A stretch of DNA of 64,000 nucleotides. Origin: Clostridiaceae bacterium BRH_c20a (GTDB lineage Bacteria > Bacillota > Peptococcia > Peptococcales > BICA1-8). A program made the position numbers and the translations under genes. Shown here piece after piece: positions 48,284 to 53,997 of the stretch. The notes beneath the pieces were generated by a model. That model was not told the DNA's origin. It searched no databases and was given only the letters and a program-made list of their open reading frames with translations. Where the stretch lies: assembly GCA_000961765.1 (NCBI GenBank), contig LADT01000005.1:1-64000 (forward strand). Direction: 5' to 3'. Numbering within the stretch: the stretch's first letter is position 1; the number at the start of each line of letters is the position of its first letter.

Positions 48284-49603
48284 TCATTCCTCTATTTTAG
48301 GTATCAAAAGATGTTCTAATATAATGCATAAAAGCATCCCTGTTACAAAGCCATTTCCTAAGATATATTGTAAAAATGTAGGCAGCTCTCTAAAAGCTGC
48401 TGCAGGAAGACTCAAAATACCGGTACCTATAATTATAGGTAAACCTATAACAAAAAAATCCCTTCTATCTAACTTCATATTGAGATAATCCTTCAAACCG
48501 AAGCCTAGCATTTGACAAAAGGAAACCAATAGAACAGAATAGCCAACAGGTTTAGGAATCGAGCTAAGGAAAGCACCAATAGGCGGAAATAAACCTAATA
48601 ACATCATAATCCCCGCATAAAGTAAAAAGGGTGCTCTGGCGCCTACCCCAGTTAGAGCTACTAGTCCTGCACTTGCTGAATATGGAACTACTCCAACAAT
48701 TGAACCTGACCCAGCTAAAATATCCGCTAAACCAGTAAAGATAACACCTCTATCATATGAATCCTCTGGCATTTTAATTCCTAAAGTCCTTTCCATAGCA
48801 AGTATGCTAGCTACTAAGTTTGATAAAACTAAGAGTCCCGTAAGAACTGAAATAAAAATTATTCCCACATCAAAAGTGGGTGTCCCCCAAGCAAATAGTC
48901 TTGGTAATTTAAATATAGGTATTTCTATACTTTTGCTATATATATTTGGTGCTATACCTAAAAAAAAGGCTAATAACCAACCTATACTGGCACCTAATAA
49001 TATTGCCAATGTTTTTATTAAGCCCTTCCCTTTTAAATTTAGGAAAATAACAATAATAATAACAACGGTTGAAACAAAAAGGCTAATCAAACTTATTTTA
49101 TCACCTTCAGCACTTATTCCAACCATACCCTTGATAAAAGAGCCCGAAAGCTGTAAAGTAAGTAACACTAGTACTGTACCTGTTACAGCAGGAGTAAAAA
49201 ACCTCAAGAGTTTACCAATGAGACCACTCAAACCTAACACAACTAGAGTAATCCCCGCAACAATGACCCCCAGCTCTAGGTCAGTTCTTAACACGGCTAA
49301 TTCCTTTCCCATACTAGGTGCCATAGCTGCTAAAGATATAAATATCCCCCACCACATTCCTGCAGGTCCCTCTATTATTGGTAATCGATGTCCAAAATAA
49401 ACTTGAAAAATGGAAGCTAATGATGCAAAAACCATGGTCCGTTGTGCAAGCTCACCTATTTCAAGTTGACTTAAACCAAGTGCAGTACCTACAACAACCG
49501 GAACAACTGCAATATTAACTAGGTTAAATGCTATCCATTGCAAAGAATATAAAATTGTCTTGGAAAAAGGGGGTGTTTCATTTGGTTGATATAAAATATT
49601 CAT
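48284..49603 (-). CDS. NCS2-family uracil/xanthine permease
   Basis: 439 residues from the ATG at 49603 (AAAGGA upstream). About twelve to fourteen helices. Conserved segments: PIIEGPAGMWWGIFISLA (family QxxxGxxxP-like helix), GSGSIVGVVPYSASAGLVALTGVGARAP (the glutamate-type signature region reads TGLADILAGSGS) and LPIIIGTGIL. Transports a nucleobase in symport with protons or sodium. The usual motif (Q/E/P)NxGxxxxT is replaced by PYSASAGLVALT, so the substrate may be atypical. Monocistronic. Confidence 0.85.
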   Translation of the reverse strand: MNILYQPNETPPFSKTILYSLQWIAFNLVNIAVVPVVVGTALGLSQLEIGELAQRTMVFASLASIFQVYFGHRLPIIEGPAGMWWGIFISLAAMAPSMGKELAVLRTDLELGVIVAGITLVVLGLSGLIGKLLRFFTPAVTGTVLVLLTLQLSGSFIKGMVGISAEGDKISLISLFVSTVVIIIVIFLNLKGKGLIKTLAILLGASIGWLLAFFLGIAPNIYSKSIEIPIFKLPRLFAWGTPTFDVGIIFISVLTGLLVLSNLVASILAMERTLGIKMPEDSYDRGVIFTGLADILAGSGSIVGVVPYSASAGLVALTGVGARAPFLLYAGIMMLLGLFPPIGAFLSSIPKPVGYSVLLVSFCQMLGFGLKDYLNMKLDRRDFFVIGLPIIIGTGILSLPAAAFRELPTFLQYILGNGFVTGMLLCIILEHLLIPKIEE

Positions 49604-49696
49604 ATTGATCCTTTCCTTACAAAAGATACACACTAATTAAAGCTATTACTATTCTAACTTATATATCTTATTGAAACTAGATACACATAAGCTGAA

Positions 49697-49738: not shown

Positions 49739-50956
49739 TTATTTACTATCTAAGAGCTCAATTATATGCATTACCTTTTGTGGCATTTTGTTAATCTCTA
49801 GGCTTCCTTTTATGCGCTGATAACAGGCAGGGCAGTTGGTAACAACATAATCAGCATTGGTTTTTTTAATATTCTCTACCTTTTTATTACTGATAGCTGT
49901 TGCTTCCTCTGGATAAAAATACTGGAACATGCCACTAGCACCACAGCATTTACTAGCCCCAGGCATCTCTACATATTCATCACCCTTTAGGCCCTGTAGT
50001 ATTTTTCTGGGCTGCTCAGTAATGTTCTGTCCCCGGACTAAATGGCAGGGGTCATGGTAGGTTACTTTTCCTTTTAAGGAGCTTTGTTTATTATCAAGGG
50101 ATATCTTTAGATCATCCACTAAAAATTGAGTAATATCTCTTACCTTTTTGGAAAATCCCTCTATTAGTTCTCTTTCCTTACTATCTTCTGGAAATAGTTT
50201 ACCATAACTTTTCAACATATTTCCACATGAGGCACATCCCGTCACAACAACATCAACATCTTTAAATATATCAAGATTATGGAGTGCTGATTCCCGGGTT
50301 ACCTTGGAATGTCCATACACATAGGCAGGTGTACCACAACAGCGCTGTTCTGTGGGAACTACTACTTCACAGCCTTCTTTAGTCAATACTCCGACAATAG
50401 AATTGGCTACTTGTGCCATAGTATGATTCATCATACATCCCACAAAGAAACCAACCTTTAAATTTGGGTTTTCTGGTTTTTGAATAGGCTTATAACTAGA
50501 GAGAAAATCCACTTTCTCAATATTTAAAGATTTAATATTAATCCCTTTAATTGTTTGCGGGATAATATTTTTACCCAACCTGAAAGAGTGAAAGGATAGC
50601 TTCCTCAAGTTATTATTAGGCAGCACTTTCTCCAAAGGAAATTTTTTGACAAAGGGTAATCCCTTTTCCCGGACTAAATCTTCCCGAGCCATTTGTACTA
50701 AGAGATGGCCCTGTACTCCACTTGGGCAGTTTTTTGAGCATTCTTCACACATCAGGCAGCTGTTTATTATTTTTTCATAAAGAGGGGTTCTTTCTAATTC
50801 ACCATTGGCTACCGCCTTGATTAACCTAATTCTCCCCCTCGTACCATATGCTTCGTTAAAATGTTCTTTATATACGCTACAGCCCTGCACACAGAAGCCA
50901 CATTTATTACAGGTATTTAATAGTTCGTAGTTTTTTCCTTCTTTTAAAATACTCAT
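49739..50956 (-). CDS. glcF: Iron-sulfur subunit of a 2-hydroxyacid dehydrogenase (GlcF-like)
   Basis: 405 residues. Two ferredoxin motifs CNKCGFCVQGC and CLMCEECSKNCPSG (residues about 16-80), then two CCG domains: GCMMNHTMAQVANSIVG ... RCCGTPAYVYG and DPCHLVRGQN ... KCCGASGMFQYF. These bind further Fe-S or a heterodisulfide-type centre. It receives electrons from the FAD subunits GlcD and GlcE encoded upstream. The start codon directly abuts the glcD stop. Last gene of the operon. Confidence 0.92.
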   Translation of the reverse strand: MSILKEGKNYELLNTCNKCGFCVQGCSVYKEHFNEAYGTRGRIRLIKAVANGELERTPLYEKIINSCLMCEECSKNCPSGVQGHLLVQMAREDLVREKGLPFVKKFPLEKVLPNNNLRKLSFHSFRLGKNIIPQTIKGINIKSLNIEKVDFLSSYKPIQKPENPNLKVGFFVGCMMNHTMAQVANSIVGVLTKEGCEVVVPTEQRCCGTPAYVYGHSKVTRESALHNLDIFKDVDVVVTGCASCGNMLKSYGKLFPEDSKERELIEGFSKKVRDITQFLVDDLKISLDNKQSSLKGKVTYHDPCHLVRGQNITEQPRKILQGLKGDEYVEMPGASKCCGASGMFQYFYPEEATAISNKKVENIKKTNADYVVTNCPACYQRIKGSLEINKMPQKVMHIIELLDSK

Positions 50957-52338
50957 TATTTACCCACCTCCAGTATTTTGTCTGGATTTAGGATATTTCC
51001 GGAGTCAAAAGCCAGCATTATTTGTCTTTTCAAACTTAGTACTTCAGGAGCAAACTCCTGATCTAAAAATGGTTTTTTCAAAAGACCAATCCCATGTTCA
51101 CCACTTAATGTACCTCCCAAGCTAAGGGCCTTTTTGCAAATAAGGAATTCTGCCTCATGTACTTTTTCAACTTCTTCCTGATTCCGCTCATCAAATAACA
51201 CCAATGGATGCAGGTTGCCGTCACCGGCATGGGCTAAAACACCAATGGGCAAATTATATTTTTCTGAAATATTAACAATTTCCTCAACAATATCAGGTAA
51301 TTTGTTACGGGGTACGGTAACATCCTGCATTGAATAAGAGGGGCGTTTTCTAGCTACAGCACCAATAACTGTTCTGCGTGCGGTCCAGAGCTGGTCAACT
51401 TCTTTTGCCGACTGTGCGATTTTAAAGCCTTTTACATTATTTTTCTCACATACTTTTTTAATAACCTCAACCTGACCATCCAGTTCTTCTTTTAAACCAT
51501 CCACTTCAATCAATAAAAGTGCATCGGCAGTTCTATCTAAGCCTAAGCCAATAAAATCTTCAGCACAATTAATTAAGAGGTTATCCATCAACTCTAAAGT
51601 AGTTGGTACTATCCCTTCACGGACAATATTGGCTACTGTCCTGCTGGCATCTTTAACACTATTAAAGGTACACAGCATCGTTTTCTTCGCTTCAGAAATT
51701 TTCTTAATTTTTAAAAACAGTTTGGTGAAAACACCTAGGGTACCTTCTGATCCCACCATGAACTTTACTATATCTAAAGGATCAGGATTAACCTGCTGCT
51801 TAGAGCCAATTGCTACAACCTCTCCGGTGCTTAAAACCATTTCCATCCCTAAAATATAATCTCTAGTGACACCATATTTTAAACAGCGGGGTCCACCAGA
51901 GCACTCACCAACATTGCCGCCAATGGTACAAGCCTTCATACTAGCTGGATCCGGCGGATAGTAGTAACCGTGGGGGGTAAGCATATCCTGCAGCTCTTGA
52001 TTGATTGTTCCCGGTTCAACAACTACAACCCTATTTTCAAAGTCTATTTCCAGGACTTTATTCATTTTTGTCAAGACTAAGGCTATACCGCCTTGATCAG
52101 GTATAGTACCTCCGCTTAAATTAGTTCCTGCACCTCTGGTAGTGACGGGAATATTCTCTTGATAAGCATAGGCTAGGATAAGGGATACCTGTCCAGTTGT
52201 TTCCGGAAAAACAATTACTTCCGGAGCACCTTTTAAAAGGGTGGCATCATATTCATATACTAATAATTCTTCTTTTGTAGTACAGATATTTTTGGGGTCA
52301 ACAATAGTCTTAAAATAATTTATTTGTTTACTATTCAT
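50956..52338 (-). CDS. glcD: FAD-linked 2-hydroxyacid dehydrogenase catalytic subunit (GlcD-like)
   Basis: 460 residues, VAO/PCMH flavoprotein. FAD-binding segments TTRGAGTNLSGGTIPDQGGI and CTIGGNVGECSGGPRCLKYG (about 85-160), and the C-terminal metal/substrate region LAHAGDGNLHPLVLFD (His) and GGTLSGEHGIGLLKK. Oxidises glycolate, D-lactate or another D-2-hydroxyacid. Overlaps glcE by 4 bp and glcF by 1 bp. The T-box upstream of the operon hints at an amino-acid-related substrate. Confidence 0.93.
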   Translation of the reverse strand: MNSKQINYFKTIVDPKNICTTKEELLVYEYDATLLKGAPEVIVFPETTGQVSLILAYAYQENIPVTTRGAGTNLSGGTIPDQGGIALVLTKMNKVLEIDFENRVVVVEPGTINQELQDMLTPHGYYYPPDPASMKACTIGGNVGECSGGPRCLKYGVTRDYILGMEMVLSTGEVVAIGSKQQVNPDPLDIVKFMVGSEGTLGVFTKLFLKIKKISEAKKTMLCTFNSVKDASRTVANIVREGIVPTTLELMDNLLINCAEDFIGLGLDRTADALLLIEVDGLKEELDGQVEVIKKVCEKNNVKGFKIAQSAKEVDQLWTARRTVIGAVARKRPSYSMQDVTVPRNKLPDIVEEIVNISEKYNLPIGVLAHAGDGNLHPLVLFDERNQEEVEKVHEAEFLICKKALSLGGTLSGEHGIGLLKKPFLDQEFAPEVLSLKRQIMLAFDSGNILNPDKILEVGK

Positions 52339-53516
52339 ACTTTTTCACCCCCAAAAAAAGATATATTTGCAGGGTCAAAGGCTGCTTTTAGTTTTTCTTG
52401 AACTATGCCCATTCCAGGTTCTTTAAAGCTCTTTTTATCTAAGATCCTTCCTTGATATTTATCCACAATTTTGCCAACCTCTTCATACCAATCAGTTCCG
52501 GCCTTTTCAGAAGGTATTATCATACCACTACCGATGAGGCAATTTATTATAATGGTAAAGTCTGAGCAGCACTTTACTAACTCATTATCTAATTGTGTTA
52601 CCATTTCCGGAAGTTTGGTATAAAAACCACTAAAAGAAACTGAATCAACAGTTTTAGCCAGTAGCTGATACTGGTTTTCTCTAAAAATAGTCCATAAGTC
52701 CCTGCTCTCAATATTATCTGAAATAATTAAACATGTGGCATCATATTGTGCGACAGTTTCTTGTAAAATACTAATTTTCCGCTGCATAGATGCTTTAAAA
52801 CCTTCGAGCTCAACTATAAGAAGCGGGGACTTTGTTATCTTTGTATTATTTTCTAATAATTGTGCCCCAGATGTATTAACAACCAGTAATTTTGCAGGGC
52901 TAATGCCCTTATTAGTTAACTGGAAAGCAGCCTCTTGGGCAGTTTTAATATCTTTAAAATTGCAGATAACAACTTGCTTTTCCTCCGGTAAAGGAAGTAA
53001 GCGCAAGGTAAAATTATTAATAATTCCAAAATACTCTTGTGAACCAATCATTAAGCCAATAATATCTAAACCGGAAACATTCTTGATATTTTTTCCGCCA
53101 ATCTTAATAAGGTCACCATTAAATAAAACTGCCTCAATACCAAGAACATATTCACGATAATTACCGTACTCACCTAAAGAATAAGAAGGGAGTGCGTGAA
53201 GCACATTGTAAGAGAGGCTAGTATGCCCGCTGGCATAGGTATCCATGGGAAAGTAAAAACCCTTTTCTGCTAGTAGTGTTTGGAACTCAAGAAAGTTAAT
53301 ACCACCTTCAACTGTTATTGTGAAGTTATCCTTATCCAATTCAATAACTTTATTTAGATGAGCAAGGTCTATAACTACTGTTTTTTCATCTACAGTTGGT
53401 GCCTTTAACTCCAAATTTTCTTTTAACAGAAGCTTTTGGTTTTGACTAATAGCCTTACTAATTATTTCCTGCAGTTCTTTATTATCTTTCGGGTCCACAA
53501 TGTTGTTAACTACCAA
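52335..53516 (-). CDS. glcE: FAD-binding subunit of a 2-hydroxyacid dehydrogenase (GlcE-like)
   Basis: 393 residues beginning at a TTG (GGAGG 9 nt upstream). A PCMH-type FAD domain (ITVEGGINFLEFQTLLAEKG, TSLSYNVLHALPSYSLGEYG) and a shortened C-terminal region ending AAFDPANISFFGG. It is a degenerate paralogue of GlcD and probably non-catalytic, as in GlcE. First gene of the operon, about 190 nt downstream of the T-box terminator. Confidence 0.87.
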   Translation of the reverse strand: MVVNNIVDPKDNKELQEIISKAISQNQKLLLKENLELKAPTVDEKTVVIDLAHLNKVIELDKDNFTITVEGGINFLEFQTLLAEKGFYFPMDTYASGHTSLSYNVLHALPSYSLGEYGNYREYVLGIEAVLFNGDLIKIGGKNIKNVSGLDIIGLMIGSQEYFGIINNFTLRLLPLPEEKQVVICNFKDIKTAQEAAFQLTNKGISPAKLLVVNTSGAQLLENNTKITKSPLLIVELEGFKASMQRKISILQETVAQYDATCLIISDNIESRDLWTIFRENQYQLLAKTVDSVSFSGFYTKLPEMVTQLDNELVKCCSDFTIIINCLIGSGMIIPSEKAGTDWYEEVGKIVDKYQGRILDKKSFKEPGMGIVQEKLKAAFDPANISFFGGEKV

Positions 53517-53704
53517 AGCACTCCACCTCCAAAGATTAGTTTTGCTACTTTATCCTCCCTATTTTCATAATTATCCTGAAATAATTTATTATTAGGAATA
53601 TTGTATATTTTGTGCATAATTATTGCAAATATAATTTAACTGCATAAATTAATTTTATATTTATTATAAAGTAGGACGTATCTGCAGGTTTAACTTTAAA
53701 TATT

Positions 53705-53961
53705 AAAAAAGCTCGTCCCTGTGTATATATACAGGGACGAGCTATAAACCCGCGTTACCACCCAAATTGACCAGAAAAAAATATTAATAGTCCTCTTAGA
53801 GCACGATAACAGCCATGCTAACCGGTGGTATTCATCATACCCCACTCCAGGGCGGAATTTCTTTTAAAACTAATGTTGGTTTACACCTACCACCAACTCT
53901 CTGAAAACTAGCCTTAAAGTACTTGTTCCCCTTCACTGTGTTTTAGTTAAATATTAAATTT
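53705..53961 (-). ncRNA. T-box leader upstream of the glcEDF-like operon
   Basis: The minus strand contains an AGTAC/GAAA-bounded specifier region, an AGAGAG...GGTGGTAGGTG...AACC Stem I apex, the T-box TTGGGTGGTAACGCGGG (53765-53749), and a terminator with the 12-bp stem GCTCGTCCCTGT / ACAGGGACGAGC plus T-run (53742-53705). The UGGU bulge would pair with a tRNA whose discriminator base is A. By alignment with the Bacillus glyQS arrangement (GAAA-codon), the specifier could be TTC (Phe), but ATT or CCG are not excluded. Confidence 0.88.
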
Positions 53962-53967
53962 AGTATG

Positions 53968-53997
53968 ATTTTACTATAGAACATCATTCTAATTCAA
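53968..53997 (-). promoter_or_regulatory. Promoter of the T-box/glc operon
   Basis: -35 TTGAAT (53997-53992), 18-nt spacer, -10 TAAAAT (53973-53968). Placed correctly to start the T-box transcript near 53961. Confidence 0.6.

Follow-up and report, generated by a model that had tools for sequence, protein, structure and literature searches.

A putative serine T-box leader ahead of a glycolate-oxidase-like operon in Clostridiaceae bacterium BRH_c20a

T-box leaders are found almost entirely on aminoacyl-tRNA synthetase genes, amino-acid biosynthesis genes and transporters. What, then, does a T-box do ahead of an operon that encodes a glycolate-oxidase-like enzyme, which amino acid does it read, and what could that enzyme contribute to the supply of that amino acid? 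These questions are raised by a 64,000-nucleotide stretch of Clostridiaceae bacterium BRH_c20a DNA (contig LADT01000005.1, positions 1 to 64,000), referred to here as the window. The genome of this organism is designated G000 and genomes used for comparison carry similar numbers.

The leader, its terminator and the operon

A cmscan search finds one complete T-box (RF00230) at 53945-53730 on the minus strand, the strand that also carries the glc operon. The match covers model positions 1-219 with 115 bits (E 1e-24), which exceeds the gathering score of 93. A competing intrinsic terminator, with a 13-bp stem and a T-run, lies at 53743-53710 on the same strand; one such terminator was found where shuffled sequences give 0.2, and the stretch that holds antiterminator and terminator folds at -29.9 kcal/mol (z -5.0 against shuffles). 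The features of the locus, in window positions, are as follows.

53730-53945, minus strand: T-box leader from stem I to antiterminator (RF00230; cmscan, 115 bits, full model)
53854-53856, minus strand: specifier UCC (Ser), followed by G and an AGGG/CCCU helix (fixed-offset rule; GAAAUUCCGCCCU is common to the serA-serS paralogue)
53757-53760, minus strand: antiterminator bulge UGGU, predicted to pair with the tRNA-Ser NCCA end by G:U wobble (UGGC in the paralogue and in G003)
53710-53743, minus strand: intrinsic terminator, 13 bp followed by T5 (terminator search and folding)
53514-53530, minus strand: Shine-Dalgarno sequence GGAGGTGGAG and TTG start of the first gene (read from the sequence)
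52335-53516, minus strand: GlcE-like FAD protein, 393 aa (PF01565 and PF02913; glcD and glcE models below cut-off; 57% identical to G003)
50956-52338, minus strand: GlcD-like FAD hydroxyacid dehydrogenase, 460 aa (TIGR00387 below cut-off; 87% identical to G003)
49739-50956, minus strand: GlcF-like Fe-S/CCG protein, 405 aa (PF13183 and PF02754, Fer4/CCG)
48284-49633, minus strand: NCS2 nucleobase permease (PF00860)

The preliminary description of this locus, which gave no strand, placed a complete T-box with terminator ahead of glcEDF-like genes, with no synthetase or other open reading frame in between, and this picture holds: the genes follow in the order glcE-D-F, and no reading frame of at least 100 aa lies on the same strand between the T-box and the first gene (start at 53516). 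Adjacent members of the glcE-D-F group overlap or abut, and all three subunits of a GlcDEF-type enzyme are encoded together. Both the GlcE-like and the GlcD-like protein have FAD_binding_4 and FAD-oxidase_C domains. GlcD reaches 470.5 bits against the TIGR00387 equivalog cut-off of 567.9, and GlcF is also below its equivalog cut-off. The NCS2 permease may be read through from the glc operon, and it is not conserved in the G003 neighbourhood. Mechanistically this is an ordinary T-box; its target is the unusual part. Elsewhere in the window, an FMN riboswitch (RF00050, 97.5 bits) lies at 18478-18344 on the minus strand.

The amino acid read by the leader

The specifier had been read as TTC (Phe) by the preliminary description, with the UGGU bulge taken to need discriminator A, as in tRNA-Phe, and an aromatic 2-hydroxyacid such as phenyllactate proposed as substrate. 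The T-box assignment withstands the Rfam covariance-model search, and the phenylalanine assignment does not withstand calibration of the specifier position. The rule used places the codon exactly one base from the basal helix and was calibrated on 27 T-boxes whose downstream genes clearly indicate an amino acid. These come from G000, a genome with 24 T-boxes in all, some on repeated contigs, and from G003, which belongs to another genus of the same family. The rule yields the expected amino acid in 25 of the 27, compared with three for the frame one base 5' and none for the frame one base 3'; the two misses are cases in which the script misplaced the basal helix. Four leaders were read by eye: in L015, L020 and L022 the script put the helix in the wrong place, and in L018 it located no helix. 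Their specifiers are ACC-A, UUC-G, UUC-G and UAC-A, respectively. At the calibrated offset the glc leader reads UCC-G, a serine codon, one base 3' of the UUC reading. That UUC stands two bases from the helix, whereas genuine Phe T-boxes of G000 and G003 have the form G-UUC-G/C-helix, with UUC one base away.

Homologous leaders point to the same amino acid. The T-box at C23:24037-23822 in the same genome agrees with the glc leader in stem I, in the entire specifier region GAAAUUCCGCCCU and in the antiterminator, and it precedes genes for a class V aminotransferase, SerA (long PGDH model TIGR01327, 698 bits) and SerS (TIGR00414, 586 bits). The glc leader is 82% identical to this leader and 85% identical to the T-box of the G003 glc operon. 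A search for the specifier motif in 398 genomes of the phylum returned ten sites in eight genomes. The sites in G000, G003, G004 and G007 have T-box features and lie before an aminotransferase gene or, for other sites in G000 and G003, before glcE, with serA next to the aminotransferase wherever the sequence piece extends that far; four sites in the remaining genomes have no T-box features. These results show, by sequence comparison, that the glc leader is a serine T-box paralogous to the leader of the serine operon. The amino acid is thus another than the one first proposed, yet it is not unrelated to hydroxyacids, to which serine can be linked.

The bulge deserves closer attention. Four tRNA-Ser genes were found in the genome, including tRNA-Ser(GGA), and all have discriminator G, so that the UGGU of the glc leader would pair with the NCCA end by G:U wobble. 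This pairing is weaker than that of UGGC with tRNA-Ser and counts against a serine reading, whereas tRNA-Phe of the same genome has discriminator A, a Watson-Crick match. UGGU nevertheless does not demand discriminator A. In this genome the T-boxes for Trp (trpB, trpE and the AOR operon) carry UGGU, yet the discriminator of tRNA-Trp is G; TBDB has the same combination in 46% of its Trp T-boxes (PMC7778990); and the Paenibacillus polymyxa serA T-box, which is serine-responsive by experiment, has UGGU (PMC8002221).

A tRNA-Phe T-box on an aromatic 2-hydroxyacid dehydrogenase, or a former serine T-box that now answers to tRNA-Phe owing to a C-to-U change in the bulge, would account for the adjacent UUC, the discriminator match and the difference between UGGU here and UGGC in the paralogue. 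We regard both variants as very improbable because the UUC offset is unlike that of 25 of the 27 calibrating T-boxes, the specifier loop and basal helix are the same as in the serS-operon leader, and the orthologous G003 leader has UGGC. C/U swaps at the same bulge base also separate the trpE and hisS T-boxes of G000 from those of G003, and drift to tRNA-Phe has nothing in its favour beyond the bulge change. The UUC specifier is rejected on the frame counts and the shared specifier region, and phenyllactate loses its support with it. The case illustrates how a wrong amino acid can arise from a one-base choice of frame combined with an over-strict bulge rule.

Several other T-boxes of G000 and G003 are recorded here as observations in their own right. 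A UGG (Trp) T-box with UGGU (L006/L028; G000:C47:39730-39483, identical at C11) precedes genes for a ferredoxin-type protein and an aldehyde:ferredoxin oxidoreductase-like protein, an unusual target that is perhaps tied to tryptophan catabolism. Phe T-boxes (UUC) precede a phenylacetate-CoA ligase-like gene in both genomes (L020, G000:C79:13710-13457; L095, G003:C30:18566-18304), which is the aromatic case that had been expected for the glc operon. Tandem T-boxes in G003 (L094 and L099, C40:12120-12932), UUC (Phe) then UAC (Tyr), stand before an apparent sodium:solute symporter gene and look like a two-amino-acid leader. The hisS T-box (L012, G000:C29; L107, G003:C14) reads AAC (Asn) rather than His, with UGGC in one genome and UGGU in the other. 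A GCC (Ala) T-box precedes an aminotransferase gene in both genomes (L004, G000:C32; L100, G003:C27), and an Lrp/AsnC-like regulator was read in G000. The valS and cysE-cysS T-boxes of G000 (L016 and L019; C42 and C17) contain inserted short repeats, e.g., AAGGCT/AAGGTT. Identical T-box loci on separate contigs of G000 (C29/C56 and C11/C47) suggest that the assembly has duplicated or redundant contigs.

Conservation of the arrangement and other leaders on orthologous operons

Orthologues were sought in 150 relatives and in the 398 genomes of the phylum. This search gave close orthologues of GlcE in G003, G077, G091 and G129, with a fragment in G194. G003 has the same serine T-box, with bulge UGGC, before glcE, and a separate serine T-box before the aminotransferase gene and serA. 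The arrangement is thus present in a relative, and the suggestion that the leader belonged to a lost synthetase is rejected because G003 keeps the glc arrangement alongside its own T-box at the serine operon. Among the genomes examined, a serine T-box before glcE occurs only in G000 and G003.

When the glc and ser leaders of these two genomes are compared, eight substitution sites support a split between glc and ser leaders and four support a split between species. The leader duplication therefore predates the two genera, and the glc leaders form their own lineage, older than the genus split, in which the association of T-box and glc operon has been retained. This history bears on whether the leader was simply inherited by duplication, with serine control of little metabolic meaning. 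T-box duplication is common (PMC3766115) and the arrangement is confined to two of the genomes examined, but the specifier, T-box and terminator are intact in the glc leaders of both genera, the glc leaders have a lineage of their own, and distant orthologues are under a different RNA related to glycine and serine. We consider a leader of little metabolic meaning improbable.

That other RNA is the glycine riboswitch (RF00504), which lies directly before glcE in G091 (L061:5200-5500) and G129 (L063:8785-8505) with 49.9 and 53.1 bits, respectively, against a gathering score of 32. By eye, both appear to have tandem aptamers followed by two successive terminator-like hairpins, the second of which is conserved; the tandem glycine model matches G091 below its gathering score. 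Like the T-box, this leader is an RNA tied to glycine/serine metabolism on an orthologous glcEDF operon; unlike it, it senses glycine itself rather than a tRNA. RNA control of the dehydrogenase by glycine/serine state may have arisen more than once. If glycine turns those operons on, a role in glycine supply would not be transferable to the G091 and G129 species. In G077 the genes ahead of glcEDF are carAB-like, and the locus gave no riboswitch match. In an Rfam scan of 13 of 80 GlcD loci, plus one G194 fragment, neither a T-box nor a glycine riboswitch stood immediately ahead of glcEDF.

The enzyme and a possible route to glycine and serine

The closest solved relatives of GlcD are Acetobacterium woodii LctD (7qh2) and a glycolate oxidase. 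In human D-2-hydroxyglutarate dehydrogenase (D2HGDH), the second carboxylate of the substrate is bound by Thr390, Lys401, Tyr432 and Asn443; GlcD and D-lactate enzymes have hydrophobic or small residues in their place (PMC7801405). The corresponding residues here are I325, M337, L368 and L379, in contrast to T/S, K, Y/F and N in D-2-hydroxyglutarate dehydrogenases; an alignment to 3pm9, an R. palustris protein of the kind used as a template for D2HGDH models, places S, K, F and N opposite them. The Lys and Asn that hold the second carboxylate are therefore absent, as are their Thr and Tyr partners, which disfavours D-2-hydroxyglutarate. A small hydroxyacid, i.e., glycolate, D-glycerate or D-lactate, is the probable substrate.

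The residue pattern matters because a D2HGDH would offer a ready explanation for serine control. SerA makes D-2-hydroxyglutarate as a by-product, and its clearance by D2HGDH drives serine synthesis in Pseudomonas, a coupling that is documented for Pseudomonas stutzeri (PMC9504171); a GlcD-family FAD enzyme controlled like SerA would suit such a role. We judge this role improbable here, considering the four replaced residues, the closest solved relatives and the match of SerA to TIGR01327, a model of long PGDH; among the PHGDH types examined in PMC9504171, those outside Type II do not have the 2-ketoglutarate reductase feature.

The class V aminotransferase encoded with serA and serS has the aspartate-glyoxylate aminotransferase BhcA as its nearest curated model, with a score far under the cut-off (367 bits, cut-off 650). 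No SerC above cut-off was found in the genome, so that the aminotransferase may also be the phosphoserine aminotransferase of this lineage and could be simply that.

The mechanism that we favour would operate as follows. When seryl-tRNA is low, tRNA-Ser would pair with the leader at two places, the anticodon at UCC (53856-53854) and the NCCA end at the UGGU bulge; the antiterminator would then form and the glc operon would be transcribed. When the tRNA is charged, the terminator at 53743-53710 would form instead. GlcEDF would oxidise a small D-2-hydroxyacid, with glycolate as the best guess and D-glycerate as a possibility, to glyoxylate or hydroxypyruvate. The class V aminotransferase, induced through the paralogous serine T-box, would then aminate the keto acid to glycine or serine. 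The routes would be glycolate to glyoxylate, glycine and serine, or glycerate to hydroxypyruvate and serine. Taken together, control by serine, the glycine riboswitch leaders of orthologous operons and the BhcA-like aminotransferase suggest a glycolate or glycerate route. The T-box and its serine specificity are shown by sequence and comparison, and the switching, substrate and metabolic route are what we infer from them; that serine starvation induces GlcEDF, and that its keto product feeds glycine and serine through the co-regulated aminotransferase, is nonetheless the reading we consider likely.

A narrower proposal is that the operon oxidises D-glycerate to hydroxypyruvate, and that direct transamination of this keto acid yields serine in a non-phosphorylated route. 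This would fit a serine signal more directly than glycolate does, and in G129 genes for glycerate kinase, a TRAP transporter and a CdaR regulator adjoin the orthologous glc operon, just upstream on the same strand. Glycerate kinase is also part of glycolate use via tartronate semialdehyde, which weakens this point, and the nearest solved homologues use lactate or glycolate. We regard a dedicated D-glycerate route as unlikely.

Known systems share parts of this arrangement. The P. polymyxa serA T-box is also transcriptional, with an intrinsic terminator and UGGU, and responds to serine and tRNA-Ser, but its specifier is AGC and its target serA (PMC8002221), in place of UCC and glcEDF. The serC T-box in Clostridia has a UCC specifier and differs in having a serine biosynthesis gene, rather than an FAD hydroxyacid dehydrogenase, as its target. 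E. coli-type GlcDEF (TIGR00387) likewise combines two FAD subunits with one Fe-S/CCG subunit and has the active-site pattern of the glycolate/lactate branch of GlcD; the enzyme described here differs in its scores below the equivalog cut-offs, its E-D-F order and its RNA leader. LctD and D2HGDH belong to the same FAD_binding_4 and FAD-oxidase_C family, although LctD works with ETF subunits and D2HGDH has the Lys and Asn that this GlcD lacks. Glycolate oxidase is elsewhere under protein regulators, e.g., GlcR in Paracoccus (PMC11323563). We found no published report that links a T-box with glycolate oxidase, glcD or glycolate, and an earlier table entry in the Vitreschak 2008 or Gutierrez-Preciado 2009 surveys is possible. 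The riboswitch is of a familiar kind; what is new is its target.

In its fullest form the proposal is more tentative. Serine starvation, acting through a duplicated tRNA-Ser T-box, might give this anaerobe an additional, C2-derived way into glycine and serine by inducing a glycolate (or glycerate) dehydrogenase. The regulon would then comprise two operons, the other encoding a glyoxylate-type aminotransferase with SerA and SerS, and RNA control by glycine/serine state would have arisen more than once, given the glycine riboswitch on the orthologous dehydrogenase in other lineages. By carrying a serine T-box, the GlcDEF-type operon connects an enzyme family that is poorly annotated with the supply of serine and points to a substrate that can be tested. 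Together with the glycine riboswitch on distant orthologues, this leader suggests that hydroxyacid oxidation feeds glycine and serine synthesis in some anaerobes.
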